Positions 27,705-62,257 of a DNA stretch of 64,000 bases are shown in pieces. Source of the stretch: Roseobacter weihaiensis (GTDB lineage: Bacteria; Pseudomonadota; Alphaproteobacteria; Rhodobacterales; Rhodobacteraceae); assembly GCF_020622345.1 (NCBI RefSeq), contig NZ_JACNMO010000004.1, positions 248,001 to 312,000 of the forward strand, given 5' to 3'. The notes beneath the pieces are model-generated. The model was not told the origin of the DNA, did not search any database, and saw only the letters and a program-made list of their open reading frames with translations. A program made the translations under genes and the position numbers. The stretch's first letter is position 1, and the number at the start of each line of letters is the position of its first letter.

Positions 27705-27729
27705 AGGAAAGCCCGTTCTTTGGGGAGTT

Positions 27730-27756
27730 AAAAAAGGGGGCAACCCGATTGCCCCC
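27730..27756 (-). terminator. Intrinsic terminator/attenuator between tctC and tctB
   Basis: On the minus strand, GGGGGCAA (27756-27749) pairs with TTGCCCCC (27743-27736) across a 5-base loop and is followed by six T. It sits 33 bases after the tctC stop and before the tctB start, so it should end most tctC transcripts and lower permease expression relative to the binding protein. Confidence 0.8.
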
Positions 27757-27788
27757 TCGTGTCCTGCACTGTCAATGCTGGAGAGGGC

Positions 27789-44366: not shown

Positions 44367-45041
44367 TTAGCCGGGGAGGCCAAAGTCGCCACCGCCACTG
44401 GTACTGCCACCGCCACTGGTGCCGCCGCCGCTGGTGCCGCCACCGCCGCTTGTGCCGCCACCGCCGCTGGTGCCGCCGCCGCTGGTGCTGCCACCGCCAC
44501 TGGTACTGCCACCGCCACTGGTGCCGCCGCCGCCGCTGGTGCTGCCACCGCCGCTGGTGCCGCCGCCGCTGGTGCCGCCACCGCCGCTTGTGCCGCCACC
44601 GCCGCTGGTGCCGCCGCCGCTGGTGCTGCCACCGCCGCTGGTGCCGCCACCGCCGCCGCCGCTGGTGCTGCCACCGCCACTGGTGCTGCCGCCGCCGCTG
44701 GTGCCGCCGCCGCCAATACTTGCGGCACTTGCATTACCTAAACGGCTAAAGTTGCGGTTGCGATCATCGCCGCTATTCAGCCGCTCAGTACCGGTATCGG
44801 CAATCGACGCTGTCGGCCGATCTACCAAAGAAAGAGCGTCGTCCGGGCAGGAATCGAACATCCGGCGCAAGATTTCGTCGTAATCAGATCGAGCTGTAAT
44901 TCGCTGCAACACATTCTCGGGAATTCTTTCCCAATTACACATGTTCCATTGTTTTGCCTGTGCTTCCTGTGGTGCGGAAAACGATAACATCGCGCTTGTC
45001 ACGGCCAGCAGGCTGGTCTGTGTCAGGGTAAGAAATCTCAT
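44367..45041 (-). CDS. Secreted protein with Gly/Ser/Thr-rich repeat C-terminus
   Basis: A 224-residue protein. Signal peptide of about 29 residues (LLAVTSAMLSFSAPQEAQA). A small folded-looking domain at about 30-105 has two cysteines (Cys35, Cys65), which may form a disulfide: NMCNWERIPENVLQRI and FDSCPDDAL. Residues 110-219 are G-G-G-T-S and G-G-G-S-T-S units, ending FGLPG. No family is recognised. It is convergent with the transglutaminase-like peptidase and lies before a PEP-CTERM-type gene. A flexible cell-surface or matrix protein is plausible, unproved. Confidence 0.75.
   Translation of the reverse strand: MRFLTLTQTSLLAVTSAMLSFSAPQEAQAKQWNMCNWERIPENVLQRITARSDYDEILRRMFDSCPDDALSLVDRPTASIADTGTERLNSGDDRNRNFSRLGNASAASIGGGGTSGGGSTSGGGSTSGGGGGGTSGGGSTSGGGTSGGGGTSGGGGTSGGGTSGGGSTSGGGGTSGGGSTSGGGSTSGGGTSGGGGTSGGGGTSGGGTSGGGSTSGGGDFGLPG
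44385..44714 (-). repeat. In-frame Gly-rich tandem repeat (GGGTS/GGGSTS units)
   Basis: About 330 bases of 15- and 18-base units. Units vary in ACC/AGC order and in third positions, and one unit is extended to five or six glycines. The array probably changes length by slippage. Its complement gives an open alanine-rich frame on the plus strand, which is an artefact. Confidence 0.9.
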
Positions 45042-46051: not shown

Positions 46052-46592
46052 AGTTATACCTTTAAAACTTAATATTCATTGGATTGAATAGGGAGCTTTT
46101 TGATCATTTTCAAGCCACACTGCTGCTGCATTTCTGCCTTAATGTCATCGATTGTTTTCACATTCGTTAAGTTACCGCGTGACAGGCGATAATTAATCCC
46201 CGACCGGAAACGCTGCCCCATTTCGTTAACCTAAATTGTTGGTCTAAAAGCACTTTTGGCGCAGCAGGTTCGAATCGGATGATCTGTGGCCGGCTGCAAC
46301 TTCAGCGTGCGGGCGGTGGCTTTGGGCTCTTTTTTCCGATTTGCATGTCGCAAAGGCGGGCAGAGCGTCGCGCGAACGCCGGGATCGTGACGTAAGGTTA
46401 TTCGGAACGCCCCCGGGCCAAAACCCGCAAAACGGGGATGCCCGTTCTGCCGCTTGACCGGCAAAGCCCGGTCGCAGCCGCTGGGATCATTCGCCTATTT
46501 CTTGGGCATGTGGCTGGCACGAAGGGGCCGTGCATCAGAAAGGCAGGCCGTCTCCTTTACAAGGCGCAACCGTTTTTGACACGTAAAGCGTG
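46052..46592. other. 541-base gene-free stretch before nasT
   Basis: Nothing protein-like is seen in any frame. The left part (46052-46230) is AT-richer and should hold the promoter of the PEP-CTERM-type gene; the right end must hold the nasT promoter. A small hairpin AACGGG/CCCGTT is at about 46430-46446. A T-loop-like GGTTCGAATC near 46268 lacks any tRNA context. Confidence 0.5.
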
Positions 46593-47177
46593 ATGTCGGA
46601 GAAATTATCAATCATCGTGGTCGAGGCAGACCGCGACCGCGCTTTGGAAATTGTTGAAGGCCTCGACAAGGCCGGGGCCTACGATATCCATGTCATTTCG
46701 GAACCCACCCGCCTTGCACGACAGATAAAGGCGTATCAGCCGGACATCGTCCTGATCGATATTGCCAACCCATCCCGGGACACATTGGAAGAGCTTGCTT
46801 TGGCGTCGGGCCCGATGGACCGGCCTGTCGCGATGTTCGTCGATCAGTCAGAATCCGGCATGTCCGAGGCGGCGATTGAGGCAGGGGTATCCGCCTATGT
46901 GGTCAACGGGATGCAACCTGCCCGTGTCAAACCGGTCCTTGATGCTGCCATCGCGCGGTTCCGCATGTTTCAGCGGATGCGCACGGAGCTGGCAGAGATG
47001 AAGCGGGCGCTGGAGGAGCGCAAGCTCATCGACCGGGCCAAGGGGATGATCATGAAAGCGCGCGGCGTGGAAGAAGAAGAAGCCTACACCATCCTGCGCA
47101 AGGCGGCGATGGATCAGGGCAAACGCGTCGCCGATGTGGCCGCGGCCCTGGTGACCGCGGCGGGTATATTGTCATGA
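46593..47177 (+). CDS. nasT: ANTAR-domain response regulator NasT
   Basis: A 194-residue RNA-binding antiterminator. An N-terminal receiver-like domain (about 1-120, LSIIVVEADRDRALEIVEGL) is followed by a C-terminal ANTAR domain (about 130-190): R-K-L-I-D-R-A-K-G-M-I-M-K-A-R-G, then E-E-E-A-Y-x-x-L-R-K-A-A-M-D. It binds dual-hairpin leader RNA and prevents termination. It overlaps nasS by 4 bases (ATGA). ATG at 46593 is preferred over GTG one codon earlier. Its target is the leader before nrtA. Confidence 0.95.
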   Translation: MSEKLSIIVVEADRDRALEIVEGLDKAGAYDIHVISEPTRLARQIKAYQPDIVLIDIANPSRDTLEELALASGPMDRPVAMFVDQSESGMSEAAIEAGVSAYVVNGMQPARVKPVLDAAIARFRMFQRMRTELAEMKRALEERKLIDRAKGMIMKARGVEEEEAYTILRKAAMDQGKRVADVAAALVTAAGILS

Positions 47178-48382
47178 AGCGCGCTGCCATTCCTGTGGGC
47201 TTCATTCCGCTGGTGGACGCGGCCCCGCTTATCACGGCCGAGGAAATGGGGTTTGCCGCGCAAGAGGGCATCTCGCTTGATCTGCGGCGCGCGCCATCCT
47301 GGTCGAGCCTGCGGGATATGCTCAGCTTTGGTCAGGTCGACGCGGCGCATATGCTCTCGACCGTGCCGGTTGCAACCGCGATGGGGCTGGGCGGCGGCGG
47401 CACATCGCTGGCGGCAGTCTCGGTGCTGTCGGTCAACGGCAACGTCATCGGGGTTGATCTTGCGCTTGAGAAGCGGATGCGCGCTGCGGGCTATGCTTTC
47501 GATTTCAGGGATGCCCATGCGGCCGGACGGGCGCTGCTGGAGCTGTGCGACAAGCCGCTGCGCATCGGCGTGCCGTTCCCGTTTTCGATGCATACGGAAC
47601 TGGTGCGATACTGGCTGTCCGGCATCAACCATCCGCAAAGCGACAACATCATGATCCACACCGTGCCGCCACCGCTGATGTCGGAGGCCATCGCGGCAGG
47701 CGAAATCGACGCCTTTTGTGTGGGTGAGCCCTGGGGGTCGCGGGCCGTGGACAAGGGGGTTGGCGCGCTGCTCCTGCCGGGGACGGCGATCTGGGCCTTT
47801 GCCCCTGAAAAAGTGCTGGCGGTGCGCAAGGACTGGGCGGAAACTGAACAATCGTTGCTGAACCGGCTGATCCGGGCGGTCTGGCGGGCGGGACGCTGGC
47901 TGGCTGAGGACGGCTCAGCACTGCTGGCCGCAGAGGTTTTGAGCCGCCCTGAATACCTCGACCTGCCGCCCGAGGTGATTGACAGATCCCTGTCAGGGCA
48001 TCTGGTGATCAGTGCCTCGGGTGAAGAACGCAGCACGCCGCGGTTTGTGGAGTTTGCACGAGGGGCCGCGAATTTCCCGTGGCGCAGTCAGGCGGAGTGG
48101 ATCGGCCACCATATGGCGGCCCGGATGGGGACGGATACAGCCGCCGCACGTCAGGCTGCCCGGGCTGTCTTTCGCTCTGATCTTTTCAGGGCGGCCCTGG
48201 CCGGGGCGGGGGCGGATTTGCCGGGCGCATCCTCCAAACTTGAGGGAGCCTTGGGCGAGGACACCGCCGTTGCCTCGGAGGGCGGACGTGTGATTCTGTG
48301 CCGCGATCAGTTTTTCGATGGTCAGATTTTTGAGCCTGAGCCCGAAAAGCGCTCAGAAATTGTGCAACTGCGGCAGGATTGA
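47174..48382 (+). CDS. nasS: Nitrate sensor NasS (NrtA-like, cytoplasmic)
   Basis: A 402-residue protein of the CmpA/NrtA binding-protein fold (IPVGFIPLVDAAPLITAEEM; PFPFSMHTELVRYWLSG; FCVGEPWGSRAV) without a signal peptide, so it stays in the cytoplasm. In Paracoccus and Azotobacter, NasS binds NasT and releases it when nitrate or nitrite is bound. The residue block FCVGEPWG corresponds to the NrtA anion pocket. It is coupled to nasT. A weak hairpin (TGCAGC/GCTGCA, 48391-48410) follows the stop and may end the nasTS message. Confidence 0.93.
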   Translation: MKRAAIPVGFIPLVDAAPLITAEEMGFAAQEGISLDLRRAPSWSSLRDMLSFGQVDAAHMLSTVPVATAMGLGGGGTSLAAVSVLSVNGNVIGVDLALEKRMRAAGYAFDFRDAHAAGRALLELCDKPLRIGVPFPFSMHTELVRYWLSGINHPQSDNIMIHTVPPPLMSEAIAAGEIDAFCVGEPWGSRAVDKGVGALLLPGTAIWAFAPEKVLAVRKDWAETEQSLLNRLIRAVWRAGRWLAEDGSALLAAEVLSRPEYLDLPPEVIDRSLSGHLVISASGEERSTPRFVEFARGAANFPWRSQAEWIGHHMAARMGTDTAAARQAARAVFRSDLFRAALAGAGADLPGASSKLEGALGEDTAVASEGGRVILCRDQFFDGQIFEPEPEKRSEIVQLRQD

Positions 48383-48493
48383 TGCGGCAGTGCAGCATAA
48401 TCTAGCTGCATGGGTCACTTTTTTCTTGGCGCGCGCCGGTCGGTCGGTAACGATATAGTCATTGGCAGGCAATGGCGCCCACCTCTGACACAT

Positions 48494-48571
48494 TCCCTAA
48501 GACAGGGACTTACTGAGCAAAGTCGCTCGACCCTTCGCTTGCTATGGCGAAGACGGTCAGCGGCTTTTTTT
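48494..48571 (+). promoter_or_regulatory. NasT-responsive leader: ANTAR-type antiterminator overlapping a terminator
   Basis: Hairpin P1: TCCCT (48494-48498) with AGGGA (48504-48508). Hairpin P2: GAGC (48515-48518) with GCTC (48525-48528) around hexaloop AAAGTC, which has the ANTAR-required A at position 1 and G at 4. P2's loop end and 3' arm are the 5' strand of the terminator at 48522-48571, so the two folds exclude each other. P1's loop is less canonical than P2's. The position, directly before nrtA and after nasTS, fits. Confidence 0.85.
48522..48571 (+). terminator. Regulated terminator in the nrtA leader
   Basis: A long stem: GTCGCT (48522-48527) with AGCGGC (48559-48564), GACC (48529-48532) with GGTC (48555-48558), and CTTCGC (48533-48538) with GCGAAG (48547-48552), followed by seven T (48565-48571). 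It ends 47 bases before the nrtA start. By default it should stop transcription. Confidence 0.88.
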
Positions 48572-48617
48572 GTTTGTCCGGTCGTCCGGACATCGGACCT
48601 AAAGAGGGATCCATTAC

Positions 48618-49985
48618 ATGAAAACATTATTGTTAGGACTGACTGCGTCGTTGGCGCTGACCGGCGCGGCAAATGCGCAATCGCTGGAGCTTGAAAAGGA
48701 CGAACTGACGTTCGGATTCATCAAGCTGACCGATATGGCCCCGCTCGCGGTGGCTTATGAAAACGGCTATTTTCTGGACGAGGGGCTGTTTGTCACCCTC
48801 GAAGCGCAGGCCAACTGGAAAGTGCTTCTGGACGGTGTGATCAGCGGGCAGCTCGACGGAGCCCATATGCTGGCGGGTCAGCCGCTGGCCGCAACGATGG
48901 GATATGGCACCGAGGCCCATATCATCACGCCCTTCTCCATGGACCTCAACGGCAACGGCATCACCGTCTCGAACGAGGTCTGGGACATCATGAAGCCGAA
49001 CATCCCCAAAATGGACGATGGCCGCCCGCAACACCCGATCTCTGCCGAAGCGCTGGTGCCTGCGGTCGAGCAGTTCCGCGCGCAAGGCAAGCCTTTCAAC
49101 ATGGGCATGGTCTTTCCGGTCTCCACCCACAATTACGAATTGCGCTACTGGCTGGCGGCGGGCGGGCTGAACCCTGGTTTTTACAGCCCCGAGAATGTCA
49201 CGGGCCAGATCGCGGCGGACGTGTTCCTGAGCGTGACGCCGCCGCCGCAAATGCCGGCAACTCTCGAGGCGGGCACGATCTCCGGTTATGCGGTGGGTGA
49301 GCCTTGGAACCAGCAAGCGGTCTTCAAGGGGATCGGCGTGCCGGTCATTACCGACTACCAGCTCTGGAAGAACAACCCGGAGAAGGTTTTCGGCATCACG
49401 GCGGCGTTTGCAGAGCAATACCCCAATACCACCGTGGCCCTGACCAAGGCCCTCATTCGCGCCGCGATCTGGCTGGACGAGAACGACAACGCCAATCGGC
49501 CGGAAGCGGTCGAAATCCTCAGCCGTCCGGAATATGTGGGCGCGGACTATGACGTGATTGCCAACTCCATGACCGGGTTCTTCGAGTTCGAGAAGGGCGA
49601 CAAGCGCGATATCCCCGACTTCAACGTCTTCTTTCGCTACTACGCCACATATCCCTTCTACTCGGACGCGATCTGGTACCTGACGCAGATGCGTCGCTGG
49701 GGGCAGATCGACGAGACCAAGGACGACCAGTGGTATTTTGACATGGCCGCCAAGGTCTACAAGCCCGCGATCTATCTTGAGGCGGCCCGTTTGCTGGTGG
49801 ACGAAGGGCTCGCCAATGAGGCGGACTTTCCCTGGGACAGCAATGGCTTCAAGGAGCCGACGCCCGCCGCCGATATCATCGATGGCATCCCCTACGATGG
49901 CAGCGCACCCAACGCCTACCTCGAAAGCCTGCCCATTGGCCTGAAGAGCGGTCAGATCGTTGTCGGCACCGAAGTGCAGGGCTGA
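48618..49985 (+). CDS. nrtA: Nitrate/nitrite ABC transporter binding protein (NrtA)
   Basis: A 455-residue periplasmic protein of the CmpA/NrtA family. Signal peptide [20 protein letters not shown]; then [20 protein letters not shown] and the anion-site block [12 protein letters not shown]. It captures nitrate (possibly nitrite) for the NrtB/ATPase importer. GGGATCC follows AAAGAG upstream as a weak ribosome site. It is first in the nrtA-nrtB-ATPase-nirB-nirD-nasA-cysG operon, under control of the NasT leader. Confidence 0.94.
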
Positions 49986-50125
49986 CATCTTACCGCGGTT
50001 TGCGGCGACTTCCTCGGGTCGCCGCAAATTCTCCCAAAGATCTGCAGTGCGGAACATCGAGCCTGACTGACATCCTCAAAAGCCATCCGGCGCTGTCGCG
50101 CCGCAGCAAAACGGAAAGCCACATC

Positions 50126-51208
50126 ATGACCGCCATCGACCCGATCAATGCACCAGACCCGGACCGCGACGCCAGACGCCAGCGGCTGTTTTCCCGGATC
50201 AATACTGCCGACAAATGGTTTCAGGTGCTGGGCCTGGCCTGGCTGACACCGATCCTGCGGGCCGCTGCCGGGGACAACCCCCGCTCCCAGCTCAAGGACC
50301 TGTGGCGGCTGGCGGCGGTCCCGCTTATTGCCATGGGGGCGTTTTTGCTGATGTGGGGCACGCTGGCGCCGCAGGTGCAGACCTCACTGGGGGCAATCCC
50401 CGGTCCCGCGCAGGTCTGGTCCGAGATGGGCAACCTGCACCACGACGCGCAAAACAAGGCCGCCAAGGAGGCCAAGTTTCAGGAAATGGTCGACAAGCGC
50501 AACCAGCGTCTGATTGAGGACGGTCGCGCGGATGAGGTCAAGAACGTCGCTTATACCGGCGCGCCGAGCTATTACACACAGATCTGGACCTCGATCAAAA
50601 CAGTGTTTTTCGGGTTCCTGATCGCGACAGTCATCGCCGTGCCGCTGGGGATCGCGGCGGGACTGTCGCCCACGGCCAACGCCGCGCTGAACCCGCTGAT
50701 CCAGATTTTCAAACCCGTATCGCCCCTGGCATGGCTGCCGATTGTGACCATGGTCGTCTCGGCCGTCTATGTCACCAACGACGGGTTTTTTGCCAAATCC
50801 TTCCTCGTCTCGGCCATTACGGTGACGCTCTGTTCGCTCTGGCCGACACTCATCAACACCGCGCTGGGCGTGGCCAGCATCGACAAGGACCTGGTGAATG
50901 TCTCCAAGGTTCTCAAGATGAACACCTGGACCAAGATCACCAAGCTGGTGCTGCCCTCGGCGCTGCCGCTGATCTTCACCGGGTTGCGCCTGAGCCTCGG
51001 GGTCGGCTGGATGGTCCTGATCGCCGCAGAGATGCTGGCGCAGAACCCCGGCCTTGGCAAATTCGTCTGGGATGAGTTCCAGAACGGCTCCTCCTCCAGC
51101 CTCGCGCGGATCATGGTGGCGGTCTTCACCATCGGGATCATCGGCTTCCTGCTCGACCGGGTGATGTACGCGCTGCAATCGCTCTTTACCTTCTCGAACA
51201 ATCGGTGA
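50126..51208 (+). CDS. nrtB: Nitrate ABC transporter permease (NrtB)
   Basis: A 360-residue inner-membrane permease with 6-7 spans. The EAA-type loop [20 protein letters not shown] and [20 protein letters not shown] are typical of the taurine/nitrate/bicarbonate permease family. A cytoplasmic insertion of charged residues (about 110-145, [19 protein letters not shown]) is visible between the first spans. The start at 50126 (MTAIDPIN) has GGAAAG upstream; the earlier in-frame 42 residues are not protein-like. Confidence 0.92.
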
Positions 51209-51213
51209 GCGGT

Positions 51214-52890
51214 ATGAGCATCCTTCAATTCAGCAACGTCTCGAAAAGCTTTGGCGACACACCGGTTCTGCGGGACATCGACCTTGAGGTCCGGGAGGGG
51301 GAATTCCTTGTCCTGCTGGGCTTTTCCGGGACGGGCAAGACCACGCTCATCAACATGCTGGCGGGTCTTGATACCCCCAGCCAGGGCCGCGTCACCTTCA
51401 AGGGGGTGCCGATCACCGGGCCGGGACCCGAGCGGGGCGTCATCTTTCAGAACTACTCGCTGATGCCCTGGCTGACGGTGAACGGAAATGTCGGGCTGGC
51501 GGTGGATACGGTGTTTCCCAACCTCTCGCGCGGCGACAAGGCGGCGAAAGTTGCGAAATACGTCAAGATGGTGGGCCTCAGCCATGCCGCAATGCGCCGC
51601 CCGGCGGAATTGTCGGGCGGGATGCGCCAGCGGGTCAACGTGGCCCGCGCGCTGGCGATGAACCCCGAAGTGCTGCTGCTCGATGAGCCGCTCTCGGCGC
51701 TCGATGCGCTGACCCGCGCCAATCTGGCCGATGAGATTGAACATATCTGGGAGGCGGACCGCAAGACCTGTGTGCTGATCACCAATGATGTGGATGAGGC
51801 GATCATTCTGGCCGACCGCATCATCGCGCTGAACCCGGACGGGACGTTGGGAGAGGAGTTCGCTGTCTCCATTTCGCGCCCGCGTGACCGGGGGGCCATG
51901 AACCATGACGCCACCTTCAAGGCCCTGCGCGCGAAGATCACCAAGTACCTCGTGGACGTCGGCATCGAGGCCAAGGTGGAGGGCACGCGCATCCTGCCCG
52001 ATGTGACCCCGATCCACGGGGTGCCCACGGCGGTGGCGGTGGCACAGTCCGGCCTGATCGAAAACCGGTTTCTGGACTTCAGCCAGCTCCACAAGGTCTA
52101 CCCGACACCCAAAGGACCGCTGACCGTGGTCGAGGATTTCGACCTCAAGATCGATAAGGGGGAGTTCATCTCCCTCATTGGGCACTCGGGCTGCGGCAAA
52201 TCCACCGTGCTGACCATGGCCGCGGGGCTGAATGAGATTTCCAAAGGGGCGATCAAGCTCGACGGGCGCCACGTCGAAGGGGCCGATCCCGAACGCGCCG
52301 TCGTGTTCCAGTCCCCCAACCTCTTCCCTTGGCTCACGGCCAAGCAGAACGTGGCCATCGGGGTGGACAAGGTCTATCCGCGCGCCAGCCAGGCAGAACG
52401 CCAGGATGTGGTCGAATACTACCTCGAACGCGTGGGCCTCGCGGACGCGATGGACAAGCCCGCCGCAGACCTGTCCAACGGGATGAAGCAGCGGGTGGGC
52501 ATTGCCCGCGCCTTTGCACTCAGCCCCAAACTTCTGCTGCTGGACGAGCCCTTTGGGATGCTCGACAGCCTGACCCGCTGGGAGTTGCAGGAGGTGCTGA
52601 TGGAGGTTTGGTCGCGCACCAAGGTCACCGCGATCTGCGTCACCCATGATGTGGACGAGGCGATCCTGCTGGCGGATCGTGTGGTCATGATGACCAATGG
52701 CCCGCAGGCCACCATCGGCAAGATCACCAAGGTGGACCTGCCGCGTCCAAGAACCCGCAAGGCGCTGCTGGAGCACCCGGACTACTACACCTACCGGCAG
52801 GAGGTGCTTGATTTTCTTGAGGAATACGAGCACGGCGCCAAGCCCAAACCGAAACCCACAACCGCGCCCCGTGCGGTTGCAGCGGAGTGA
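51214..52890 (+). CDS. Nitrate ABC transporter tandem ATPase (NrtC/NrtD-like fusion)
   Basis: A 558-residue protein with two ABC domains (about 1-245 and 290-530). Domain 1: Walker [10 protein letters not shown], signature LSGGMRQRV, Walker [13 protein letters not shown], switch ITNDVDEA (Asn replaces His). Domain 2: Walker [10 protein letters not shown], signature LSNGMKQRV, Walker [13 protein letters not shown], switch VTHDVDEA. It lacks the NrtA-like C-terminal domain of cyanobacterial NrtC. GTG at 51205, overlapping the nrtB stop, is an alternative start. It should power NrtB as a pseudo-dimer. Confidence 0.92.
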
Positions 52891-52895
52891 ACGTG

Positions 52896-55331
52896 ATGCA
52901 ACAGAAACTGATCGTCATCGGGGCCGGCATGGCCTCCGGGCGGGTGCTGGAACACCTGACGGAAGACGCGCACGATGCCTACGACATTACGCTCTTCAAC
53001 GCAGAGCCGCGCGGAAACTACAATCGCATCATGCTCTCTCCGGTGCTGTCGGGCGAGAAGACATATGAAGAAATCGTCACCCATGACGACGCTTGGTACG
53101 ATGAGGCTGCCGTCACCTGCCGCTTTGGCGAGCGGGTGGCGGCCATCGATACCGCCGCCAAGACCGTGACCGCTGAAAACGGCGATGTGCTGGCCTATGA
53201 CAAGCTGCTCTTTGGCACCGGCTCTACCCCCTTTATGATCCCGCTACCGGGCCATGATCTGGACGGCGTCATCGCCTACCGCGATTTGGAGGACACCCAG
53301 GCGATGATGGCGCTGGGGGCGGGCAACAAGGTTGTCGTGATCGGGGGCGGGCTCTTGGGGCTGGAGGCGGCGGCCGGCATGGCCGCGCGTGGCGTCGAGG
53401 TCACCGTGGTGCATATCATGGGCCACCTGATGGAGCGGCAGTTGGACGAGGCGGCAGGCTACCTTTTGCGCAAGTCGCTGGAGGCCAAGGGCATCACCAT
53501 CCTCTGTGGGGCCAATTCCAAGGAAATCCTCGGCGAGGATGGCAAGGTCCGCGCACTGATGCTGGATGATGGTACCGAATTGCCCTGCGACCTGCTGGTC
53601 ATGGCGGTGGGCATCCGGCCCAATGTGGCTCTGGCGCAGGAGGCCGGGCTGGCTGTGGGGCGCGGCATCCATGTGGACGACCGGATGCTGACCTCGGTCG
53701 AGGATGTCCTCGCCGTGGGCGAATGTGTGGAGCATGACGGTGCGGTCTTTGGCCTCGTCGCGCCGCTTTACGATCAGGCGAGGGTCGCGGCGCAGACCTT
53801 GCTGGGGAAAGAGGCGGCCTTCGTGCAAAAGAGCCTCTCCACCAAGCTGAAAGTGACGGGCTGTGACCTCTTCTCCGCCGGAGACTTTGCCGAAGGCGAG
53901 GGACGCGAGGACATCGTCTTTCGCGATCCGTCGCGTGGTGTCTACAAGCGCCTTGTGATCGAGAATGACCGGCTGGTCGGCGCGGTCATGTACGGCGACA
54001 CAGGCGACGGCAACTGGTTCTTCGGGCTGATCAAGGACGCCACCGATATTACCGAGATGCGGGAGACGCTGATCTTCGGCCCAGCCTATCAGGGAGGGTC
54101 CACCGCGGACCCGTTGTCAGCCGTTGCAGCCTTGCCGCCTGAGGCGGAAATCTGCGGGTGCAACGGCATTTGCAAATCCACCATCACCGACGCCATCGCC
54201 GCTGGCGCTACCGATCTGGGGGCGGTGCGCGCGACCACCAAGGCCAGCGCCTCCTGTGGCACCTGCACGGGGCTGGTGGAACAGATCTTGCAGGTCACGC
54301 TGGGCGACGATTTCCAGATGCCCGCCGTGCAAACCGTCTGCGGCTGTACTGAACTGAGCCACGAAGACGTGCGGCGGCTGATCAAATCGCAAGCGCTGAA
54401 GTCTCAGGCCGCGGTCTGGCAGGAGCTGGGCTGGCGCACCCCCAACGGCTGCCATGTCTGCCGCCCGGCGGTGAACTACTATCTTCTGGCGGATTGGCCG
54501 GTGGAGTATCAGGACGACCCGCAAAGCCGTTTTGTCAACGAACGCAAACACGCCAACATCCAGAAAGACGGGACGTTTTCGGTGGTGCCGCGCATGTGGG
54601 GCGGCATCACCAACCCCGACGAGCTGCGGGCGATTGCGGATGCGGCGGATAAATACAATGTGCCGACTGTCAAGGTCACGGGCGGCCAGCGCATCGACCT
54701 GCTGGGCGTGAGGGGGGAGGACCTGCCCTATATCTGGTCTGATCTGAACAAGGCGGGGCTGGTCTCGGGTCATGCCTATTCCAAGGGGCTGCGGACGGTG
54801 AAAACCTGTGTTGGCACGGATCATTGCCGCTTTGGCACGCAGGACTCCACCGGGCTCGGCATCAAGCTGGAAAAGATCCTCTGGGGGTCGTGGACACCGC
54901 ACAAGCTCAAGCTGGGGGTCAGTGGCTGCCCGCGCAACTGTGCCGAGGCGACCTGCAAGGACATTGGCATCGTCTGTGTCGATAGCGGCTTTCAGATCGG
55001 TATCGGCGGGGCCGCCGGCATGGATGTGAAAGAGACGCAATTGCTGGGACAGGTCGAGACCGAAGAAGAGGCGATCGCGGTCGTGATCGCCGTGACGCAG
55101 GCCTACCGGGAGGGCGGCAAATACCTCGACCGGATCTATAAATGGCTCGCCAAGGTAGGGCTGGACTGGGTGCAGGCGCAGGTGATGGAAGATCTGGAAA
55201 ACCGCAAGGCGCTGGTGGCGCGGTTCGAGCTGTCGCAGTCCATCTATCGCAAGGACCCCTGGGCCGAGCAGGCCAAGGAGGCCGAGCGCTTTGCCCCGAT
55301 TGCGGATCTGACGCTGGAGGCGGCGGAATGA
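52896..55331 (+). CDS. nirB: Assimilatory nitrite reductase, large subunit NirB
   Basis: An 811-residue NADH-dependent nitrite reductase (nitrite to ammonium, six electrons). N-terminal FAD/NADH domains (LIVIGAGMASGRVLEHL; VVVIGGGLLGLEAAAGM), two BFD-like [2Fe-2S] regions (CGCNGICKST with SCGTC; CGCTELSHED with GCHVC), and the C-terminal siroheme/[4Fe-4S] domain with CVGTDHC and GCPRNC. Start ATG 52896 has GGAG 8 bases upstream; GTG at 52893 or 52887 is possible. The stop overlaps nirD (ATGA). Confidence 0.97.
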   Translation: MQQKLIVIGAGMASGRVLEHLTEDAHDAYDITLFNAEPRGNYNRIMLSPVLSGEKTYEEIVTHDDAWYDEAAVTCRFGERVAAIDTAAKTVTAENGDVLAYDKLLFGTGSTPFMIPLPGHDLDGVIAYRDLEDTQAMMALGAGNKVVVIGGGLLGLEAAAGMAARGVEVTVVHIMGHLMERQLDEAAGYLLRKSLEAKGITILCGANSKEILGEDGKVRALMLDDGTELPCDLLVMAVGIRPNVALAQEAGLAVGRGIHVDDRMLTSVEDVLAVGECVEHDGAVFGLVAPLYDQARVAAQTLLGKEAAFVQKSLSTKLKVTGCDLFSAGDFAEGEGREDIVFRDPSRGVYKRLVIENDRLVGAVMYGDTGDGNWFFGLIKDATDITEMRETLIFGPAYQGGSTADPLSAVAALPPEAEICGCNGICKSTITDAIAAGATDLGAVRATTKASASCGTCTGLVEQILQVTLGDDFQMPAVQTVCGCTELSHEDVRRLIKSQALKSQAAVWQELGWRTPNGCHVCRPAVNYYLLADWPVEYQDDPQSRFVNERKHANIQKDGTFSVVPRMWGGITNPDELRAIADAADKYNVPTVKVTGGQRIDLLGVRGEDLPYIWSDLNKAGLVSGHAYSKGLRTVKTCVGTDHCRFGTQDSTGLGIKLEKILWGSWTPHKLKLGVSGCPRNCAEATCKDIGIVCVDSGFQIGIGGAAGMDVKETQLLGQVETEEEAIAVVIAVTQAYREGGKYLDRIYKWLAKVGLDWVQAQVMEDLENRKALVARFELSQSIYRKDPWAEQAKEAERFAPIADLTLEAAE

Positions 55332-55657
55332 CCTGGATGGACGTTGGCCACATCAACGATATCCCCTTGCGGGGGGCAAGGATCGTCAAGACGCCGCTGG
55401 GGTGTGTCGGGCTCTTTCGGACCGATGTGGCAGAGGTCCACGCGGCCTCGAACAGCTGCCCGCACAAGGGGGGGCCGCTCTCCGAAGGGATCGTACACGG
55501 CCAGAAGGTCACCTGTCCGCTGCACAACTGGGTCTTTGACCTCACCACCGGCGCGGCGGTCGGCGAAGAGGGTCGGATCGACATCTACCCGGTGCGTCTT
55601 GAGGCCGGGCGCATCCTGCTGGATGGCACCGCCCTGGGCAAGCGGAGTGCCGCGTGA
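55328..55657 (+). CDS. nirD: Assimilatory nitrite reductase, small Rieske subunit NirD
   Basis: A 109-residue Rieske-type protein. The cluster ligands are in SCPHKGGPL (C-x-H) and CPLHNWVF (C-x2-H), so a true [2Fe-2S] Rieske site is retained (in many NirD proteins it is lost). In Paracoccus the equivalent NasG carries electrons from the NADH-FAD nitrite reductase to nitrate reductase. The ATG at 55328 overlaps the nirB stop. An in-frame reading from 55142 belongs to another frame of nirB and is rejected. Confidence 0.95.
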   Translation: MTWMDVGHINDIPLRGARIVKTPLGCVGLFRTDVAEVHAASNSCPHKGGPLSEGIVHGQKVTCPLHNWVFDLTTGAAVGEEGRIDIYPVRLEAGRILLDGTALGKRSAA

Positions 55658-58287
55658 TGGACGGCAGCGACCTGCCCGAGACCAAGTCGACCTGCCCCTA
55701 TTGCGGCGTCGGATGCGGGGTGCTGCTGCGTCCCGATGGTCAGGGCAATGTCGCGGTGCGCGGCGATCCCGATCATCCGGCGAATTTCGGCAGGCTGTGC
55801 TCCAAGGGGACCGCTCTGGGAGAGACCGTGGGTCTGGGTGAGCGCCTGCTGCATCCGCAGGTGAACGGGCAGAAAGCCTCCTGGGAGGCGGCGCTGGCAA
55901 CGGTGGCGGACCGCTTTGGACGCACCATCAAGGACCACGGACCGGACAGCGTGGCCTTTTATGTTTCGGGGCAATTGCTGACCGAAGATTACTACGTTGC
56001 CAACAAGTTGATGAAAGGGTTCATCGGCTCGGCCAATATCGACACAAATTCAAGGCTCTGCATGGCCTCGACGGTTGCAGGGCAAAAACGCGCCTTTGGT
56101 ACTGACACCGTGCCGGGCACCTATGAGGACATCGACGCGGCGGATTTGGTGGTCCTTGTGGGCTCGAACCTCGCGTGGTGCCACCCGGTGCTCTACCAGC
56201 GGCTGCTGGCGGCGCGTCAGAACCGGGGCACCAGGATTGTCGTGATCGACCCGCGCCGGACTGCCAGTTGCGATCAGGCGGATTTGCATCTCGCCCTGGC
56301 GCCGGGCAGCGACGTGGCCCTGTTCAACTACCTGCTCACCCAGATTTATGAGGGCGGCTGCGTAGATGCGCGTTATCTCGAACATGTTTCGGGGTTCGAC
56401 GCCGCGCTGGAGGCCGCCTATGCCGATGACGTCCGCGTCACGGATCTGTCGCGCGCGCAAATCACCCGGTTTTGTGATCTGTGGATGCGACATGACAAGG
56501 TCGTGACGATCTTCAGCCAGGGCGTCAACCAGTCCAGCGCCGGCTCGGACAAGGTCAATGCCATCCTGAACTGTCATCTGGCAACCGGCCGGATCGGCAA
56601 ACCGGGGTGCGGGCCGCTTTCGGTGACCGGTCAGCCCAACGCGATGGGCGGGCGCGAGGTCGGGGGGCTGGCCAACATGCTGGCCTGCCATCTGGATCTG
56701 GAGAACGCCCGGCACCGGGCCGCCGTGCAGGCGTTCTGGGGCGCGGGCACCCTGCCGGCCGTCGCAGGCCTCAAGGCGGTCGACCTCTTTGAGGCAGTGG
56801 GCAAGGACCGGATCAAGGCGCTCTGGATCATCCACACCAATCCTGCGGTTTCGATGCCGGATGCGGATGCGGTGACCAAGGCGATTGCGGGATGCGACTT
56901 CACGGTTGTCAGCGACATCACCGCGCAAACCGATACCGCGCGGCTGGCAGATGTGGTCCTGCCCGCAACCGCCTGGGCGGAAAAAAGCGGGACGGTCACC
57001 AATTCAGACCGGACCATCAGCCGCCAGCGTGCCGTGCTGTCCCCTCCGGGGGAGGCGCGCGACGATTGGGCGATCCTGGCCGAGGTGGGGCGCCGGATGG
57101 GGTGGCCTGCCGCCTTCGACTATCAATCCCCGGCAGAGATTTTCCGCGAATACGCCACGCTCTCGGGGATCGCGGCCCGCTTTGGGCGCGATTTCGATAT
57201 CACCGGGCTGAAAGACATGGACGATCCGACCTATGACGCCATGGAGCCCGTCCGCTGGCCGGTCAGCACACAAAAAACCGCAGAGCGGTTCTTTGCGCGG
57301 GGCGGGTTCTATCACGCCGATGGCAAGGCGCGGATGCTGCCGCTGCGCTGGCGGGCCCCTGTTGCGGAAACGGGCCGGCGCTATCCCTTCCGTCTCAATA
57401 CCGGTCGCATCCGGGATCAGTGGCATACGATGACCCGGACGGCGCTGTCGCCGCGTCTGTCGGCGCATCTGGCCGAGCCTTACGTGGATATCCACCCGGA
57501 GGATGCCAAAATCCTCGGGGTCGGCACGGCCGAGATCATCCGCCTCAAAAGCCCGCAAGGCAGCGCGCTCTTGCGGGCCCGTGTGACGACAGCGCAGCGT
57601 CCCGGAGAGCTCTTTGCCCCGATCCACTGGACCGGGGAAACAGCCCCCTGCGCGCGGGTGGACACGCTTGTGGCCGCGGTCACCGACCCGGTGTCGGGGC
57701 AGCCCGAGAGCAAGGCTGCCGTGGTCGCAGCATCGCGTTTTGAGGCGGCATGGTATGGTTTTGCGGTATCCTCCAAACCGCTGTCCCCCAAGGCGGAGTA
57801 TTGGGCGCGCGCACGCACCACGGCCGGGTGGCGGGCAGAGCTGGCCGGGGCCACAAAGCCGCAGAACTGGGAGGCGGAAGCACGCAGGCTCTTTGGTCTG
57901 GCGGACGCTGAGGTGCAGTCTTTTGCCGATACCAGCCGCGGCGATCACCGCTTTGCCTTTCACGACGGCGGGCGGCTTTTGGCGGCGCTCTTTATCTCGC
58001 GCCAGCCGGTGGCGGTGATGCGGGACTATCTGGCCGACCGATCGGGCCAGAGCGTGCCGCAGGTGCTGACCGGCATGACGCCCGCCGATCACCCCGATCC
58101 CGGCCCGGTGCTCTGCGCCTGTCTGGGGGTTGGCGTGAACACGATACTGACCGCCATCGAACAGGATGGCTTGATGAGTGTCGCGGCAATCGGGCAGGCC
58201 CTGGGGGCAGGGACCAATTGTGGCTCCTGCAAGCCAGAGATCGCCGCGCTGCTGGCGAGCCGCGATGTGAAGGAAGCAGCCGAATGA
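55657..58287 (+). CDS. nasA: Assimilatory nitrate reductase, catalytic subunit NasA
   Basis: An 876-residue molybdoenzyme reducing nitrate to nitrite. N-terminal [4Fe-4S] ligands CPYCGVGC (13-20) and C-S-K-G near residue 47; Mo-bis-MGD domains with NSRLCMAS (active-site Cys), QGVNQSSAGSDKVN and GRIRDQWHTMTRT; a C-terminal BFD-like [2Fe-2S] region CACLGVGVN with NCGSC. No signal peptide, so cytoplasmic. No separate NADH reductase gene is present; electrons may come through NirB/NirD. GTG at 55654 is an alternative start. Confidence 0.96.
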   Translation: MDGSDLPETKSTCPYCGVGCGVLLRPDGQGNVAVRGDPDHPANFGRLCSKGTALGETVGLGERLLHPQVNGQKASWEAALATVADRFGRTIKDHGPDSVAFYVSGQLLTEDYYVANKLMKGFIGSANIDTNSRLCMASTVAGQKRAFGTDTVPGTYEDIDAADLVVLVGSNLAWCHPVLYQRLLAARQNRGTRIVVIDPRRTASCDQADLHLALAPGSDVALFNYLLTQIYEGGCVDARYLEHVSGFDAALEAAYADDVRVTDLSRAQITRFCDLWMRHDKVVTIFSQGVNQSSAGSDKVNAILNCHLATGRIGKPGCGPLSVTGQPNAMGGREVGGLANMLACHLDLENARHRAAVQAFWGAGTLPAVAGLKAVDLFEAVGKDRIKALWIIHTNPAVSMPDADAVTKAIAGCDFTVVSDITAQTDTARLADVVLPATAWAEKSGTVTNSDRTISRQRAVLSPPGEARDDWAILAEVGRRMGWPAAFDYQSPAEIFREYATLSGIAARFGRDFDITGLKDMDDPTYDAMEPVRWPVSTQKTAERFFARGGFYHADGKARMLPLRWRAPVAETGRRYPFRLNTGRIRDQWHTMTRTALSPRLSAHLAEPYVDIHPEDAKILGVGTAEIIRLKSPQGSALLRARVTTAQRPGELFAPIHWTGETAPCARVDTLVAAVTDPVSGQPESKAAVVAASRFEAAWYGFAVSSKPLSPKAEYWARARTTAGWRAELAGATKPQNWEAEARRLFGLADAEVQSFADTSRGDHRFAFHDGGRLLAALFISRQPVAVMRDYLADRSGQSVPQVLTGMTPADHPDPGPVLCACLGVGVNTILTAIEQDGLMSVAAIGQALGAGTNCGSCKPEIAALLASRDVKEAAE

Positions 58288-58345
58288 TCCTGCCTGCATC
58301 CCACCACCGCCCGCCAGCATATCGTTTCCTGAAAAGGGGTCTCTA

Positions 58346-59755
58346 ATGAAAAGCTTTCCCATGTTCATCCGCACCAGCGGTCGCCGAGTCGTGATTGCCG
58401 GCGGGAGCGAGCAAGCCGCGCAAAAAGCCCGGCTGATCCTCAAAACCGACGCACAGATCGTGATCGCAGCCCCGGAGCTTGACCCGGAGCTTGCGGATGT
58501 GATCCGCAGCGGGCGAGGCACATGGCACCGAGGGCCGATGACACCTGCGCTCTTTGAAGGGGCTGCCATGGGCTTTATTGCCACGGGCTGTCCGGGCATC
58601 GATGCCAGCCTGCATGCGCTGGCAGGCGAGGGGCGCTGCCCGGTGAATGTGGTGGACCAGCCCGCGCTCTGTGATCTGACGACGCCGTCGCTGGTGGATC
58701 GCGATCCGGTGGTGGTCGCCATCGGCACCGAAGGCACGGCCCCGGTGCTTGCCCGGCAGATCAAGACCAGGGTGGAGGAGATCCTGCCCGCCAACCTCGG
58801 CGGGCTGGCCGCTTTTGCGGGGCGCATGCGCCGGGCGGTGGCCCAGCGTGTCCCGCGCGCGCAGCGCCGGGCGTTCTGGCGCTGGGTCTTTGCAGAGCAG
58901 CCCCGGCAGCTCTGGGCAGGGGGGGCGGAACGGGAGGCCGCCCGCTCCATCAAGGCCGCCATCAAGGTCGGGGCCGCGCCGGATGCCGCGCGCGACGGAT
59001 CGGTGACGCTGATCGGGGCCGGGCCGGGGGCCAGGGACCTGCTGACCTTGCGCGCCATCGCCCGGTTGCAAGAAGCGGATGTGGTCTTTTACGACCGGCT
59101 TGTGGACGTGGAGGTGTTGGAACTGGCCCGCCGGGACGCGGAACGTGTCTATGTGGGCAAGGTCGTGGGAGCCTGTGCCTGGCCGCAAGACCGGATCAAC
59201 ATGTTGATTGTTGAGGAGGCCCGCAAGGGGCGTAACGTGGTGCGGCTGAAATCCGGGGATCCCGGCATCTTCGGGCGCGGCGGCGAGGAAATTGCCGCGG
59301 CCAAGGCCGCCGGGGTGCGGGTCGAGATCGTACCCGGCGTCACGGCAGCCTGTGCCGCCGCGGCGAGTGCCGGCATCAGCCTGACAGAACGGGGAATTTC
59401 AAACAAGCTGGTGCTTGCCACCGCCACCGGGGCCCACGGCGGTGTCCTGCCCGAAAGCGTCGATCTGACCGGCCCCGGCACCAGCACGGCGTTTTACATG
59501 GCCACGCGGCAATCCAAGGCGATTCAGGATGCGTTGTTGCGGCGCGGTGTGCCGGAAGACACCGCGTTCACCCTCGCGGTCGATGTCTCCAAACCCTCCG
59601 AACGGGTCTTTTCAGGCCAACTGCGCGACCTGCATGAACAGATCGCGGCGGAAGGTATCACGGGCTGCGCGATCATCCTTGTGACCTGGCCGCTGTCAGA
59701 AGCTGTCGCAGAAGAGGCGGCGGCAGAGACCTGCCTCTTGTCCATGGCTGTCTGA
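58346..59755 (+). CDS. cysG: Siroheme synthase CysG
   Basis: A 469-residue trifunctional enzyme making siroheme from uroporphyrinogen III. Residues 1-about 150 are the precorrin-2 dehydrogenase/ferrochelatase domain (RRVVIAGGSEQAAQKARLIL); about 210-460 are the uroporphyrinogen methyltransferase (VTLIGAGPGARDLLTLRAIA; EIVPGVTAACAAAASAGI). It supplies the siroheme of NirB, which explains its place at the end of the nas operon (58-base gap from nasA). AAAAGGGG precedes the ATG. Convergent with phnM, 9 bases away. Confidence 0.96.
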   Translation: MKSFPMFIRTSGRRVVIAGGSEQAAQKARLILKTDAQIVIAAPELDPELADVIRSGRGTWHRGPMTPALFEGAAMGFIATGCPGIDASLHALAGEGRCPVNVVDQPALCDLTTPSLVDRDPVVVAIGTEGTAPVLARQIKTRVEEILPANLGGLAAFAGRMRRAVAQRVPRAQRRAFWRWVFAEQPRQLWAGGAEREAARSIKAAIKVGAAPDAARDGSVTLIGAGPGARDLLTLRAIARLQEADVVFYDRLVDVEVLELARRDAERVYVGKVVGACAWPQDRINMLIVEEARKGRNVVRLKSGDPGIFGRGGEEIAAAKAAGVRVEIVPGVTAACAAAASAGISLTERGISNKLVLATATGAHGGVLPESVDLTGPGTSTAFYMATRQSKAIQDALLRRGVPEDTAFTLAVDVSKPSERVFSGQLRDLHEQIAAEGITGCAIILVTWPLSEAVAEEAAAETCLLSMAV

Positions 59756-59764
59756 GGGCTCCAT

Positions 59765-60958
59765 TCAGGCGACCCGCCGTCCCGCGCTCCATACGCCTTG
59801 CAGATGGTGGGTATCCGAAATGCGCCGGACGCGCACGATATCGGCGCGGTAGCCTGTCGACAGCTGACCGCGATCCTTAAGCCCAACCGCGCTTGCCGGG
59901 GTTTCGGAAACACAGCGCATGGCACGTGGCAGGTCATCCCACAGCTCTGCCAGTTTCAAAGCTGACAACAGCAGTGCGGCTGGCACATAGTCGGACGAGA
60001 CGATATCCAGCAGGCCCTGTTCTGCCAGTTCCAGCGCCGAGACGTTGTTGGAATGTGACCCGCCCCGAATGACATTGGGCGCGCCCATAATGATCGCGAT
60101 GCCCGCGTCCCGGCAGGCTTTTGCCGCCTCAAGCGTGGTTGGAAACTCCGCCAGCCGGATGCCGTAGCCCGCAGAGACCGCCACCTGTTGCGCGGTGGTG
60201 TCATCGTGGCTCGCCAGCACCGCTCCCAGACGGGCGGCCTCGGCCACGGCACCGGCCTCATGAGCGGCCCCAAACCGATGCTGCAGGCCTTGCAGAGTGG
60301 CGACATGGTCGATGAAATCCGCCTCGCTCATGTTGTTTTTGCCCATGCTATAGGCCCGCAGCTTGTCCATATCGCGGAACTGCCGCTGGCCGGGCGTGTG
60401 GTCCATCAGGCTGACCAGGCCGATGCGGTCCTGCGGGCCGAACTCCGCCAGTTCGTCCAGCAAGGTTTCAGAGCAGATCTCGGCCCGCAGATGCAGGTAG
60501 TGGCTGATCTTGAGCGCCCCGGTTGCGCGCAGGCCCAGCAGTTCAGAGGCCAGTGCACGGGCATATTTCCGATTCCGGCCCTTGCTCGTGGGGATCGAGC
60601 CCACGCGCATCGCGTCAAAGACGGTGGTGATCCCGGTCGAGGCAAGCTCGGCGTCATGGGCGATCAGCGCAGGCGCGTGCGGCCATTCAACGCGTGGGCG
60701 CGGCTCGATATGCCGCTCCAGATTGTCGGTGTGGAGTTCAACCAGCCCCGGTACCAGCAAATCACCGGCACAATCGGTTGCCCCGTATGGCACGCAAGCG
60801 GTTTCCTCAAGTGCGGCAATGGTGCTGCCCTGAACGGTGATCTGCCCGGTGATGACCCTGTCGTGCAGTACCACGCGGGCATTGGCCAGACAGAAAGAGG
60901 GCGTAGGGTCACCGTCGCTGATCTGTGGGGCGGGGGTTGGGGAAAGAGCCGAATTCAT
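59765..60958 (-). CDS. phnM: Alpha-D-ribose 1-methylphosphonate 5-triphosphate diphosphatase PhnM
   Basis: A 397-residue amidohydrolase-family enzyme that removes diphosphate from ribose 1-methylphosphonate 5-triphosphate in the C-P lyase pathway. The metal-binding and PhnM-specific segment is PGLVELHTDNLERHIEPRPR; LASHDDTT and MGAPNVIRGGSHSNN are further family blocks. The ATG at 60958 (MNSALSP) is chosen, as the preceding 44 in-frame residues lack family character. Last visible gene of the phn operon. Confidence 0.95.
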   Translation of the reverse strand: MNSALSPTPAPQISDGDPTPSFCLANARVVLHDRVITGQITVQGSTIAALEETACVPYGATDCAGDLLVPGLVELHTDNLERHIEPRPRVEWPHAPALIAHDAELASTGITTVFDAMRVGSIPTSKGRNRKYARALASELLGLRATGALKISHYLHLRAEICSETLLDELAEFGPQDRIGLVSLMDHTPGQRQFRDMDKLRAYSMGKNNMSEADFIDHVATLQGLQHRFGAAHEAGAVAEAARLGAVLASHDDTTAQQVAVSAGYGIRLAEFPTTLEAAKACRDAGIAIIMGAPNVIRGGSHSNNVSALELAEQGLLDIVSSDYVPAALLLSALKLAELWDDLPRAMRCVSETPASAVGLKDRGQLSTGYRADIVRVRRISDTHHLQGVWSAGRRVA

Positions 60959-61025
60959 GGGGCGGTACTCGCAATTTGCAGGATATGCCGGGTGGCGGGA
61001 TGCCTCAAGGGCGCAAAGGGGTTCA

Positions 61026-61574
61026 TTACCAGACCGCCTCGCGGGCCAGGGCGGCGCGGGCAGCGGCAACGGTCTCCTCCAGCGCGCCATCGTTGGAGAT
61101 TTGGATCATGGAAAGACCGGGGGGGATCGCGGCACCCGCCCGCGCGCGCCTGTCAGCGATGCCCTGCGGTGTTTCGCGGCCCCGGTGGCGCAGCCGGTCG
61201 GTCAGTGTCTCAGGCCGCGCGGTCAACTGCAACACGGTCAGCGTCTCAAAAACCTGTCCGGCCTCAACCAGCACGCCGCGCGACAGGTTGACCAGAAAGG
61301 ACTGGCCGCGATCTGCTTCCTGACGGATGGCTTCGGGGATACCGTAGGAAAGCCCGTGCGCGGTCCAATGCAGACAGAAGGCCTTCCCCTTGACCATTTG
61401 CGCAAAGGTCGCCGCATCCACCGTGTCATAGTCTTCACCGCCCATGTCACGTGGGCGTGTGATGACCCGGCGCACGATCTCAAGCGCGGGCACGGTCGCG
61501 CCGAGCGCCGCAATGACACTGTCTTTGCCGACACCTGACGGCCCGACGACAGCGATGACCCGCCCGGCCGTCAT
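61026..61574 (-). CDS. phnN: Ribose 1,5-bisphosphate phosphokinase PhnN
   Basis: A 182-residue P-loop kinase (guanylate-kinase fold) that makes PRPP from ribose 1,5-bisphosphate, the recycling step after C-P bond cleavage. Walker A GPSGVGKDS; RRVITRPRDMGGEDYDTVDA is the guanylate-kinase-like R-x-x-T-x-R-x-x-x-x-x-E-x-x-x-x-x-V motif. The start at 61574 overlaps the phnL stop by 4 bases. Confidence 0.93.
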   Translation of the reverse strand: MTAGRVIAVVGPSGVGKDSVIAALGATVPALEIVRRVITRPRDMGGEDYDTVDAATFAQMVKGKAFCLHWTAHGLSYGIPEAIRQEADRGQSFLVNLSRGVLVEAGQVFETLTVLQLTARPETLTDRLRHRGRETPQGIADRRARAGAAIPPGLSMIQISNDGALEETVAAARAALAREAVW

Positions 61575-62257
61575 GCCGCCTCGCGGGGAATGAAGGCGGA
61601 GAGATCGACCGCGCGGGTGCAAACCTTCGCGCGGGTGGGGACATTATGGAAAATACCGACGATGGCGGCACCGGGCGCCTTGGCCTCGTGGATCGGCGCC
61701 AGCACGACGGCGCGGTTGGCCGGATCGAGGCTGGCGGTGGGTTCATCCAGCAGCAAGGCGGGGTAGTCATAGGCAAAGTCGCGGGCAATCCTCACGCGTT
61801 GCTGCTCACCCCCGGAGAAAGTTGTGGGCGACAGACCCCAGAGTCTTTTCGGGATGTTGAGCCGTGCGAGCAAGTGTTCGGCCCGGTGCCGTGCCGCGAC
61901 CGGATGATGACCGACAGCCAAAAGCGGCTCAGCCACAACGTCAAGCGTCGGCACCCGCGGCACAACTCGCAGGAACTGGCTGACATACCCAAGCGTATGG
62001 CGGCGCAGGGTCAGGATATCCCGCGACGCGGCCTTGGCCACGTCAACCCCGCCCATGCAGATGCTGCCGCAGGCTGCCAGAGAACTGCCATAGATCATGC
62101 GCATCAGGGTGGATTTGCCCACGCCAGATGGCCCGGTCAGCGCTACACATTCGCCCGGCGCCACACCAAGGGTGGTCCCTTGCAAGACCGGAATTTCAGT
62201 GCCGCCCTGACTGTGCAGGGTAAAGGATTTGGAGACGTTTTCGATCCGGATCATCAT
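61571..62257 (-). CDS. phnL: C-P lyase complex ABC-type subunit PhnL
   Basis: A 228-residue ABC ATPase-like subunit. Walker A GPSGVGKST, signature FSGGEQQRV, Walker B ALLLDEPTASLD, switch-region GIFHNVPTR (His retained). PhnL binds the C-P lyase core in company with PhnK rather than a membrane transporter. The ATG at 62257 overlaps the phnK stop (ATGA); 62254 and GTG 62260 are nearby alternatives. A 4-base overlap with phnN follows. Confidence 0.93.
   Translation of the reverse strand: MMIRIENVSKSFTLHSQGGTEIPVLQGTTLGVAPGECVALTGPSGVGKSTLMRMIYGSSLAACGSICMGGVDVAKAASRDILTLRRHTLGYVSQFLRVVPRVPTLDVVAEPLLAVGHHPVAARHRAEHLLARLNIPKRLWGLSPTTFSGGEQQRVRIARDFAYDYPALLLDEPTASLDPANRAVVLAPIHEAKAPGAAIVGIFHNVPTRAKVCTRAVDLSAFIPREAA

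Follow-up and report, generated by a model that had tools for sequence, protein, structure and literature searches.

The leader analysed here lies between nasS (ending at 48382) and nrtA (starting at 48618) of Roseobacter weihaiensis, in a 64 kb stretch of NZ_JACNMO010000004.1 that is called the window in this work. On the forward strand, nasT (46590-47177) encodes an ANTAR response-regulator-like antiterminator of 195 aa (PF03861, 71.6 bits, cut-off 27.3), and nasS (47174-48382) a nitrate/nitrite-sensor-like protein (PF13379, 204.8 bits) whose best PDB matches were the nitrate transport proteins NrtC/NrtA. They are followed on the same strand by nrtA (48618-49985; PF13379, 306.1 bits), the first gene of a putative operon. 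The rest of this operon (50000-59755) was assigned from open reading frames and Pfam, and comprises nrtB (within 50000-51208), nrtC (51205-52890), a nirB-like gene (52887-55331), a Rieske nirD-like gene (about 55328-55657), a nasA-like molybdopterin nitrate reductase gene (55654-58287) and cysG (58346-59755), with which the nrt-nir-nas cluster ends. The genes from nrtA to cysG are presumably transcribed as a single transcript. Convergent with cysG, the reverse strand at 59765-62260 carries what we take to be part of a phosphonate cluster, with phnM-, phnN- and phnL-like genes recognised by eye. Elsewhere in the window, a reverse-strand open reading frame (44367-45041) consists mostly of TSGGG/STSGGG-type repeats, and the overlapping frames mirror these repeats as low-complexity open reading frames.

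NasT was the one ANTAR protein found in a whole-genome PF03861 search (5.35 Mb), and its gene and the leader belong to the same locus. Its best plasmid matches were in Leisingera, Ponticoccus, Rhodobacter and Paracoccus, in keeping with a Rhodobacteraceae-type genome. NasT could be aligned with EutV (6wsh) and NasR (4akk) using phmmer. The RNA-contact residues described for EutV are K143, K147, R168, M172, N173, R175 and R177 (PMC8934654); NasT has K, R, R, M, D, G and R at these positions (four identical, one K-to-R change), as read by hand from the phmmer alignment with EutV numbers mapped by our own count. The order nasT-nasS-leader-nrt-nir-nas-cysG and the encoded domains fit a putative control by NasS/NasT.

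P2, the antiterminator hairpin, was located by folding at 48514-48529 on the forward strand (TGAGC-AAAGTC-GCTCG). In its core, GAGC (48515-48518) pairs with GCTC (48525-48528) around the loop AAAGTC (48519-48524), which is closed by the C:G pair 48518:48525. The earlier note had described this core as a hexaloop hairpin with A and G at loop positions 1 and 4 (A1/G4), and both the sequence and the folds agree. An intrinsic terminator was predicted at 48519-48571 (forward strand; stem 48519-48567, run of seven T at 48565-48571). The fold of 48485-48575 reached -34.6 kcal/mol (shuffle mean -21.3, sd 3.1) and none of 200 shuffles was as low, which bears out the terminator already claimed and shows it to be a strong one. 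The terminator had been described as reusing the 3' arm of P2 and half of its loop, from 48522; the 3' arm is indeed shared, but in the longer fold the stem starts at 48519 and takes the whole loop. P2 and the terminator share these bases and are consequently mutually exclusive, as had been proposed. Gene order, domains and this competition support the earlier reading of the region as a NasS/NasT antitermination leader ahead of nrt-nir-nas-cysG. The terminator was not listed by the promoter/terminator scan, probably because its stem has an internal loop.

The fold of 48458-48530 contained exactly three hairpins: an upstream hairpin, a middle hairpin at 48494-48508, and P2. The earlier note had taken the middle hairpin as P1 and had considered the two-hairpin element complete within 48494-48571. 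This did not hold, as the C:G-closed A1/G4 hairpin that covaries among relatives is the upstream one, outside that interval (48468-48479, forward strand). Its stem GGC/GCC encloses the loop AATGGC (48471-48476), closed by the pair 48470:48477, and is extended by GG/CC (48464-65/48482-83) and GTCA/TGAC (48458-61/48486-89) across two 2x2 internal loops. Folds, covariation and strict motif counts all identify it as the true P1. Its loop lies approximately 48 nt 5' of the P2 loop, and both loops are C:G-closed A1/G4 hexaloops on stems of at least 3 bp. The fold showing this P1 had a z of -2.25 (3/200 shuffles as good). Of 5000 dinucleotide-shuffled versions of the window segment, 0.8% contained a C:G-closed AANGNN hairpin with at least 3 bp at any position, and 0.02% one at an offset of 46-51 nt.

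Homologous leaders were collected from genomes with a nasT match (14/19 of the same genus and 103/246 at the family level, own genome included in both). We examined 111 nasT loci, comprising our own, 13 others of the genus and 97 of the other 102 family-level matches, and P1 and P2 were assigned in 107 of them (window included; nine by hand), leaving out L049, L053, L061 and L079. P1 candidates needed G4 and at least 3 bp and received bonuses for a longer stem, A1, A2 and a C:G closing pair; consequently, counts of P1 features are biased, including the C:G closing pair present in 106/107 leaders. Independently of these bonuses, a strict rule (C:G-closed AANGNN, at least 3 bp, 80 to 20 nt 5' of the P2 loop) gave a P1 in 94/107 leaders compared to 1.1 expected from dinucleotide shuffles, and with at least 4 bp in 74/107 compared to 0.4. 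The offset was 46-52 nt in 69 of the 94. Thirteen leaders failed the strict rule, among them L003 of the same genus. The window P1 is short, with 3 contiguous pairs; 65/107 leaders have at least 5.

Pairs 3-7 of P1 each showed 15-29 branches with pair-keeping double changes on a tree of the NasT proteins, compared to at most 7 when the partners were slid by 1-3 bases. The covariation score in a MAFFT alignment of 89 of the 107 leaders (A1; offset 44-54, without the near-duplicates L038, L039 and L072 and the odd L071 and L085) was 0.355 vs. 0.159 in shuffles, none of 500 being as high, while the number of pairs changed on both sides was not in excess in this alignment (11 vs. 10.4). In a second alignment (A2), restricted to 53 non-genus leaders by removing 11 same-genus and 25 irregular-middle rows by hand, the score was 0.392 vs. 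0.159, and the high conservation of A2 is partly due to this hand choice of rows. RNAalifold, run on the 89 aligned leaders with no structure supplied, predicted only the upstream P1 and P2. P2 covaried weakly (3 and 5 double events in pairs 3 and 4) because it is nearly invariant: its closing pair was C:G in 106/107 leaders, with no bonus for it in the selection, while A1 (105/107) and G4 (107/107) were features on which P2 had been selected. Two checks named earlier, covariation of P1/P2 and alignment of the leader in relatives, showed strong covariation in the upstream P1 and weak covariation in P2, with the 48494-48508 hairpin missing from the consensus and the role of canonical P1 falling to the upstream hairpin.

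TGCnGCA repeats were observed at 48383-48397 (window TGCGGCAGTGCAGCA) and recur 5' of P1 in relatives. The 15 commonest 9-mers were each present in 29-33/104 leaders, with one mismatch allowed, at a median position of 65-85 nt before the P1 loop. These repeats may act as an activator site for the nrtA promoter.

Next, we used covariance models of the whole element. R1 includes the window leader, while R2 was built from the 53 A2 leaders and contains no same-genus sequence. R2 recognised the whole three-hairpin NasT element at 48463-48530 on the forward strand (59.5 bits, E 6.6e-13 in 64 kb). Its second-best match in the window (27698-27758, 18.4 bits) appears to be a simple hairpin and was set aside. 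In the own genome, R2 gave one match at E 0.01 or better, and R1 scored the window element at 62.3 bits, the next match reaching 17.7. Of 54 loci outside its build, R2 found 45 at E 0.01 or better (including L096, where it matched P2 only) and a further five at E between 0.018 and 0.34; at E 1 or better it found none in L071, L085, L089 and the Paracoccus denitrificans locus L113. Among the four loci left out of the assignment, L049, L053 and L079 had E 0.01 or better, and L061 only 0.34. Scans with the Rfam families, which may not include the ANTAR model named in the earlier note, turned up nothing relevant: the window gave no match at the gathering score, and 48000-49000 only chance-level matches at E up to 10.

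The middle hairpin (48494-48508, forward strand; TCCCT-AAGAC-AGGGA) is present in sequence and fold as the earlier note had it. As an ANTAR P1 it lacks A1, the C:G closing pair and the six-base loop: the loop is AAGAC (five bases) or TAAGACA (seven bases) and the closing pair T-A, with the G of loop position 4 kept at 48501. The loop size, flagged at the time as atypical, is a sign that this is a different hairpin. Folded alone with P2, it was modestly above chance (z -1.75, 11/200 shuffles as good). A CCC-N5..9-GGG motif was present between P1 and P2 in 72/107 leaders (3.5 in shuffles); loop position 4, counted from the CCC, was G in 53/72 and in 40/48 with a 7-base loop. Hexaloop hairpins of at least 4 bp, picked by stem alone, were found in the middle region of 48/107 leaders (15.5 in shuffles), with G4 in 30/48 vs. 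about 20% in shuffles. Choosing by best stem with loops of 5-8 bases gave a middle hairpin in 105/107 leaders (none in L085 and L096), with loop sizes of 5 (37), 6 (47), 7 (17) and 8 (4); the loop started 18-28 nt 5' of the P2 loop in 95/107 and was displaced in 10. Thirteen of the 105 were A1/G4 hexaloops, 10 of them C:G-closed (examples are L050, L051, L071, L098, L100, L103 and L106). The folding of the middle region alone was modest (mean z -1.06; 41/106 ranked in the top 10% against their own shuffles). Judged from sequence, the middle hairpin is conserved in position, at the place where a canonical P1 would sit.

This position would suit a two-hairpin ANTAR element with 48494-48508 acting as P1, its loop unusual and its distance to P2 canonical (about 21 nt). 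The usual spacing to the P2 loop resembles that of the eut pair (A29/A53, PMC3369931) and that of the short dual elements assigned at the class level (offsets 18-27, see below), and the CCC-anchored loops mostly keep their G. However, NasR SELEX returned C:G closing pairs with A1/G4 (PMC7496416), a combination that the window hairpin lacks and that few of the best middle hairpins show; the hairpin is missing from the RNAalifold consensus, and the defining ANTAR features sit on the upstream hairpin instead. We regard this reading as improbable. Mutating 48494-48508 as P1 would test the wrong hairpin, and the base-level model is corrected here in this respect.

A different role for the middle hairpin is that of a third NasT-binding site, which would make the leader a relay of three hairpins at steps of about 21-28 nt, not a spaced pair. 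The excess of middle hexaloops and of G4 within them, and the 13 A1/G4 hexaloops, speak for it, as does L071, where the upstream loop (set by hand) has lost A1 and the middle one is canonical. On the other hand, A1 and the C:G closing pair are gone from most middle hairpins, that of the window among them, loop size varies, the hairpin is absent or displaced in some leaders and it folds modestly. A third site is a real possibility, although we think it less likely than not; we favour the middle hairpin as either a spacer or a weakened third site. Extended to the Rhodobacteraceae-type NasT leaders as a class, the proposal would be that NasT passes from the distal canonical hexaloop to a middle hairpin, which in most leaders retains G4 without A1, and on to P2, which we put forward only tentatively and consider rather unlikely. 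If this relay were true, antitermination would span about twice the distance allowed by the published ANTAR rules, and dual-hairpin searches that assume short linkers would overlook such leaders.

NasT leaders have been published for Azotobacter, Pseudomonas and Bradyrhizobium. By the published definition, an ANTAR target has two stem-loops, each with a stem of at least 3 bp and a hexaloop carrying A1 and G4 (PMC3369931). Natural linkers in eut span 5-12 nt, and lengthening to 14 nt cut induction in the EutV system drastically (PMC3369931); in a curated actinobacterial set, linkers of 2-25 nt were kept (PMC8164766). The P1-P2 linker is about 34 nt in the window, has a median of 32 nt and exceeds 25 nt in 101/107 leaders. 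It is thus too long for the short-linker criterion of ANTAR dual-hexaloop RNA, and the element was filed as a variant and not as a plain member of the ANTAR targets. It resembles the Enterococcus faecalis EutV/eut leaders (PMC3369931, PMC8934654) in its A1/G4 hexaloops and in a P2 exclusive with the terminator, but eut has two hairpins on a short linker, whereas here a hairpin lies inside the long one. In EutV, G4 is reported as the sole base-specific contact and successive hairpin binding has been proposed (PMC8934654). Klebsiella oxytoca NasR/nasF (PMC7496416, PMC3369936) shares nitrate-responsive ANTAR antitermination and C:G-closed A1/G4 hexaloops, but NasR is a one-component NIT-ANTAR sensor, and for full RNA binding it needs no more than the two-hairpin motif. 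The Bradyrhizobium leaders (PMC6759348) are likewise under NasST control via a leader hairpin, but of other target genes (nosR, nirA, narK). No description of a three-hairpin layout of NasT/ANTAR leaders was found in the text of the open-licence papers searched. The mechanism itself is already known, and the predicted three-hairpin, long-linker layout is a new structural variant by the literature searched. It would be a natural exception to the ANTAR short-linker rule, kept in many genera of a single family, and it lets one ask whether a folded middle hairpin is a substitute for proximity or a third docking site.

We consider it very probable that the element is a NasT-dependent antitermination leader in which the upstream P1 recruits NasT, P2 is then stabilised and the middle hairpin folds the linker. 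NasT binding, nitrate dependence and read-through would be as in the characterised relatives. Without nitrate, NasS would hold NasT, the P2 loop and 3' arm would be captured by the terminator (48519-48567, seven T) and transcription would stop before nrtA. With nitrate or nitrite, NasT would be released and recruited to the C:G-closed A1/G4 hexaloop of P1 (48468-48479), and would next stabilise P2 (48514-48529); the terminator could then not form, and nrt-nir-nas-cysG would be transcribed. The hairpin at 48494-48508 would shorten the 34-nt linker by folding up much of it, so that P1 and P2 come within reach of each other, and is perhaps itself a weakened NasT site. This explanation is weakened because the linker exceeds the 14 nt that reduced EutV induction (PMC3369931), and because the window P1 is short, 13 leaders fail the strict rule, pairs changed on both sides are not in excess in A1 and R2 misses L071, L085, L089 and P. 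denitrificans. The small effect of the HII mutation in P. denitrificans (see below) also counts against it.

The nasA leader of P. denitrificans is a close counterpart, with nasT-nasS directly upstream (PMC3795266, PMC5424462); its first gene is nasA, whereas here it is nrtA. Activated NasS-NasT caused a shift of the nasA leader RNA, with NasT as the protein bound (PMC3795266). Two hairpins, HI and HII, are named in the published account: HI, exchanged as a PstI/AscI fragment, was needed for expression and essential for growth on nitrate, while mutation of HII hardly changed induced expression and raised the level in ammonium twofold (PMC5424462). The nasA leader sequence of strain HAMBI_2443 has a P1-like hairpin and two further G4-loop hairpins, and the single AscI site between -340 and +80 of nasA shares bases with the P1-like one, in its loop and 3' arm. 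This supports HI being the upstream (P1-like) hairpin in P. denitrificans, assuming that the AscI site was not primer-added. Placing HI and HII by the published distances (137 and 91 bp) did not fit HAMBI_2443, which is another strain than the published one, so that only the AscI argument was used.

Copies of the element were also found away from nrtA, in six relatives with L049 included. R2 matched 58/148 genomes at the order level, five of them more than once. All of the six further copies (L188-L193) precede siroheme-synthase-like (cysG/cobA) genes, with 52-55% identity to the window cysG (L188 and L189 over the C-terminal half only), and the R2 copy in L049 likewise lies ahead of a gene matching the window cysG. 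These copies connect the element with the supply of siroheme to nitrite reductase, and the R2 matches suggest that in some relatives siroheme synthase belongs to the NasT regulon through a leader of its own. This recurrence also bears on whether the leader could be a constitutive attenuator, in which a terminator stands beside unrelated hairpins and control is at the promoter only. The upstream TGCnGCA repeats could serve such control as an activator site, and ammonium control in Paracoccus acts through NtrBC (PMC5424462); set against the covariation, the A1/G4 hexaloops, the linkage to nasT and the copies before siroheme-synthase-like genes, this explanation is very improbable, and NasT-dependent antitermination is the reading retained.

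Beyond the order, R1 matched 4/191 class-level genomes, 31 of which have a nasT match, and R2 matched 15/299 phylum-level genomes, nine of which, counting the own genome, belong to the same family. The match L200 (G358, another family) is real, lying ahead of an nrtA relative at 76% identity. The matches L194-L199, at about 26-32 bits, were taken as chance, with no matching leader with a nitrate gene. A rule-based scan of 20 class-level loci gave eight with putative short dual elements (L153, L155, L159, L163, L164 and L166-L168; offset 18-27), four with putative long ones (L152, L154, L160 and L170) and eight with no pair assigned. L166 and L167, from another family, each gave two short dual-hexaloop elements about 1.5 kb apart, with offsets of 21 and 19.
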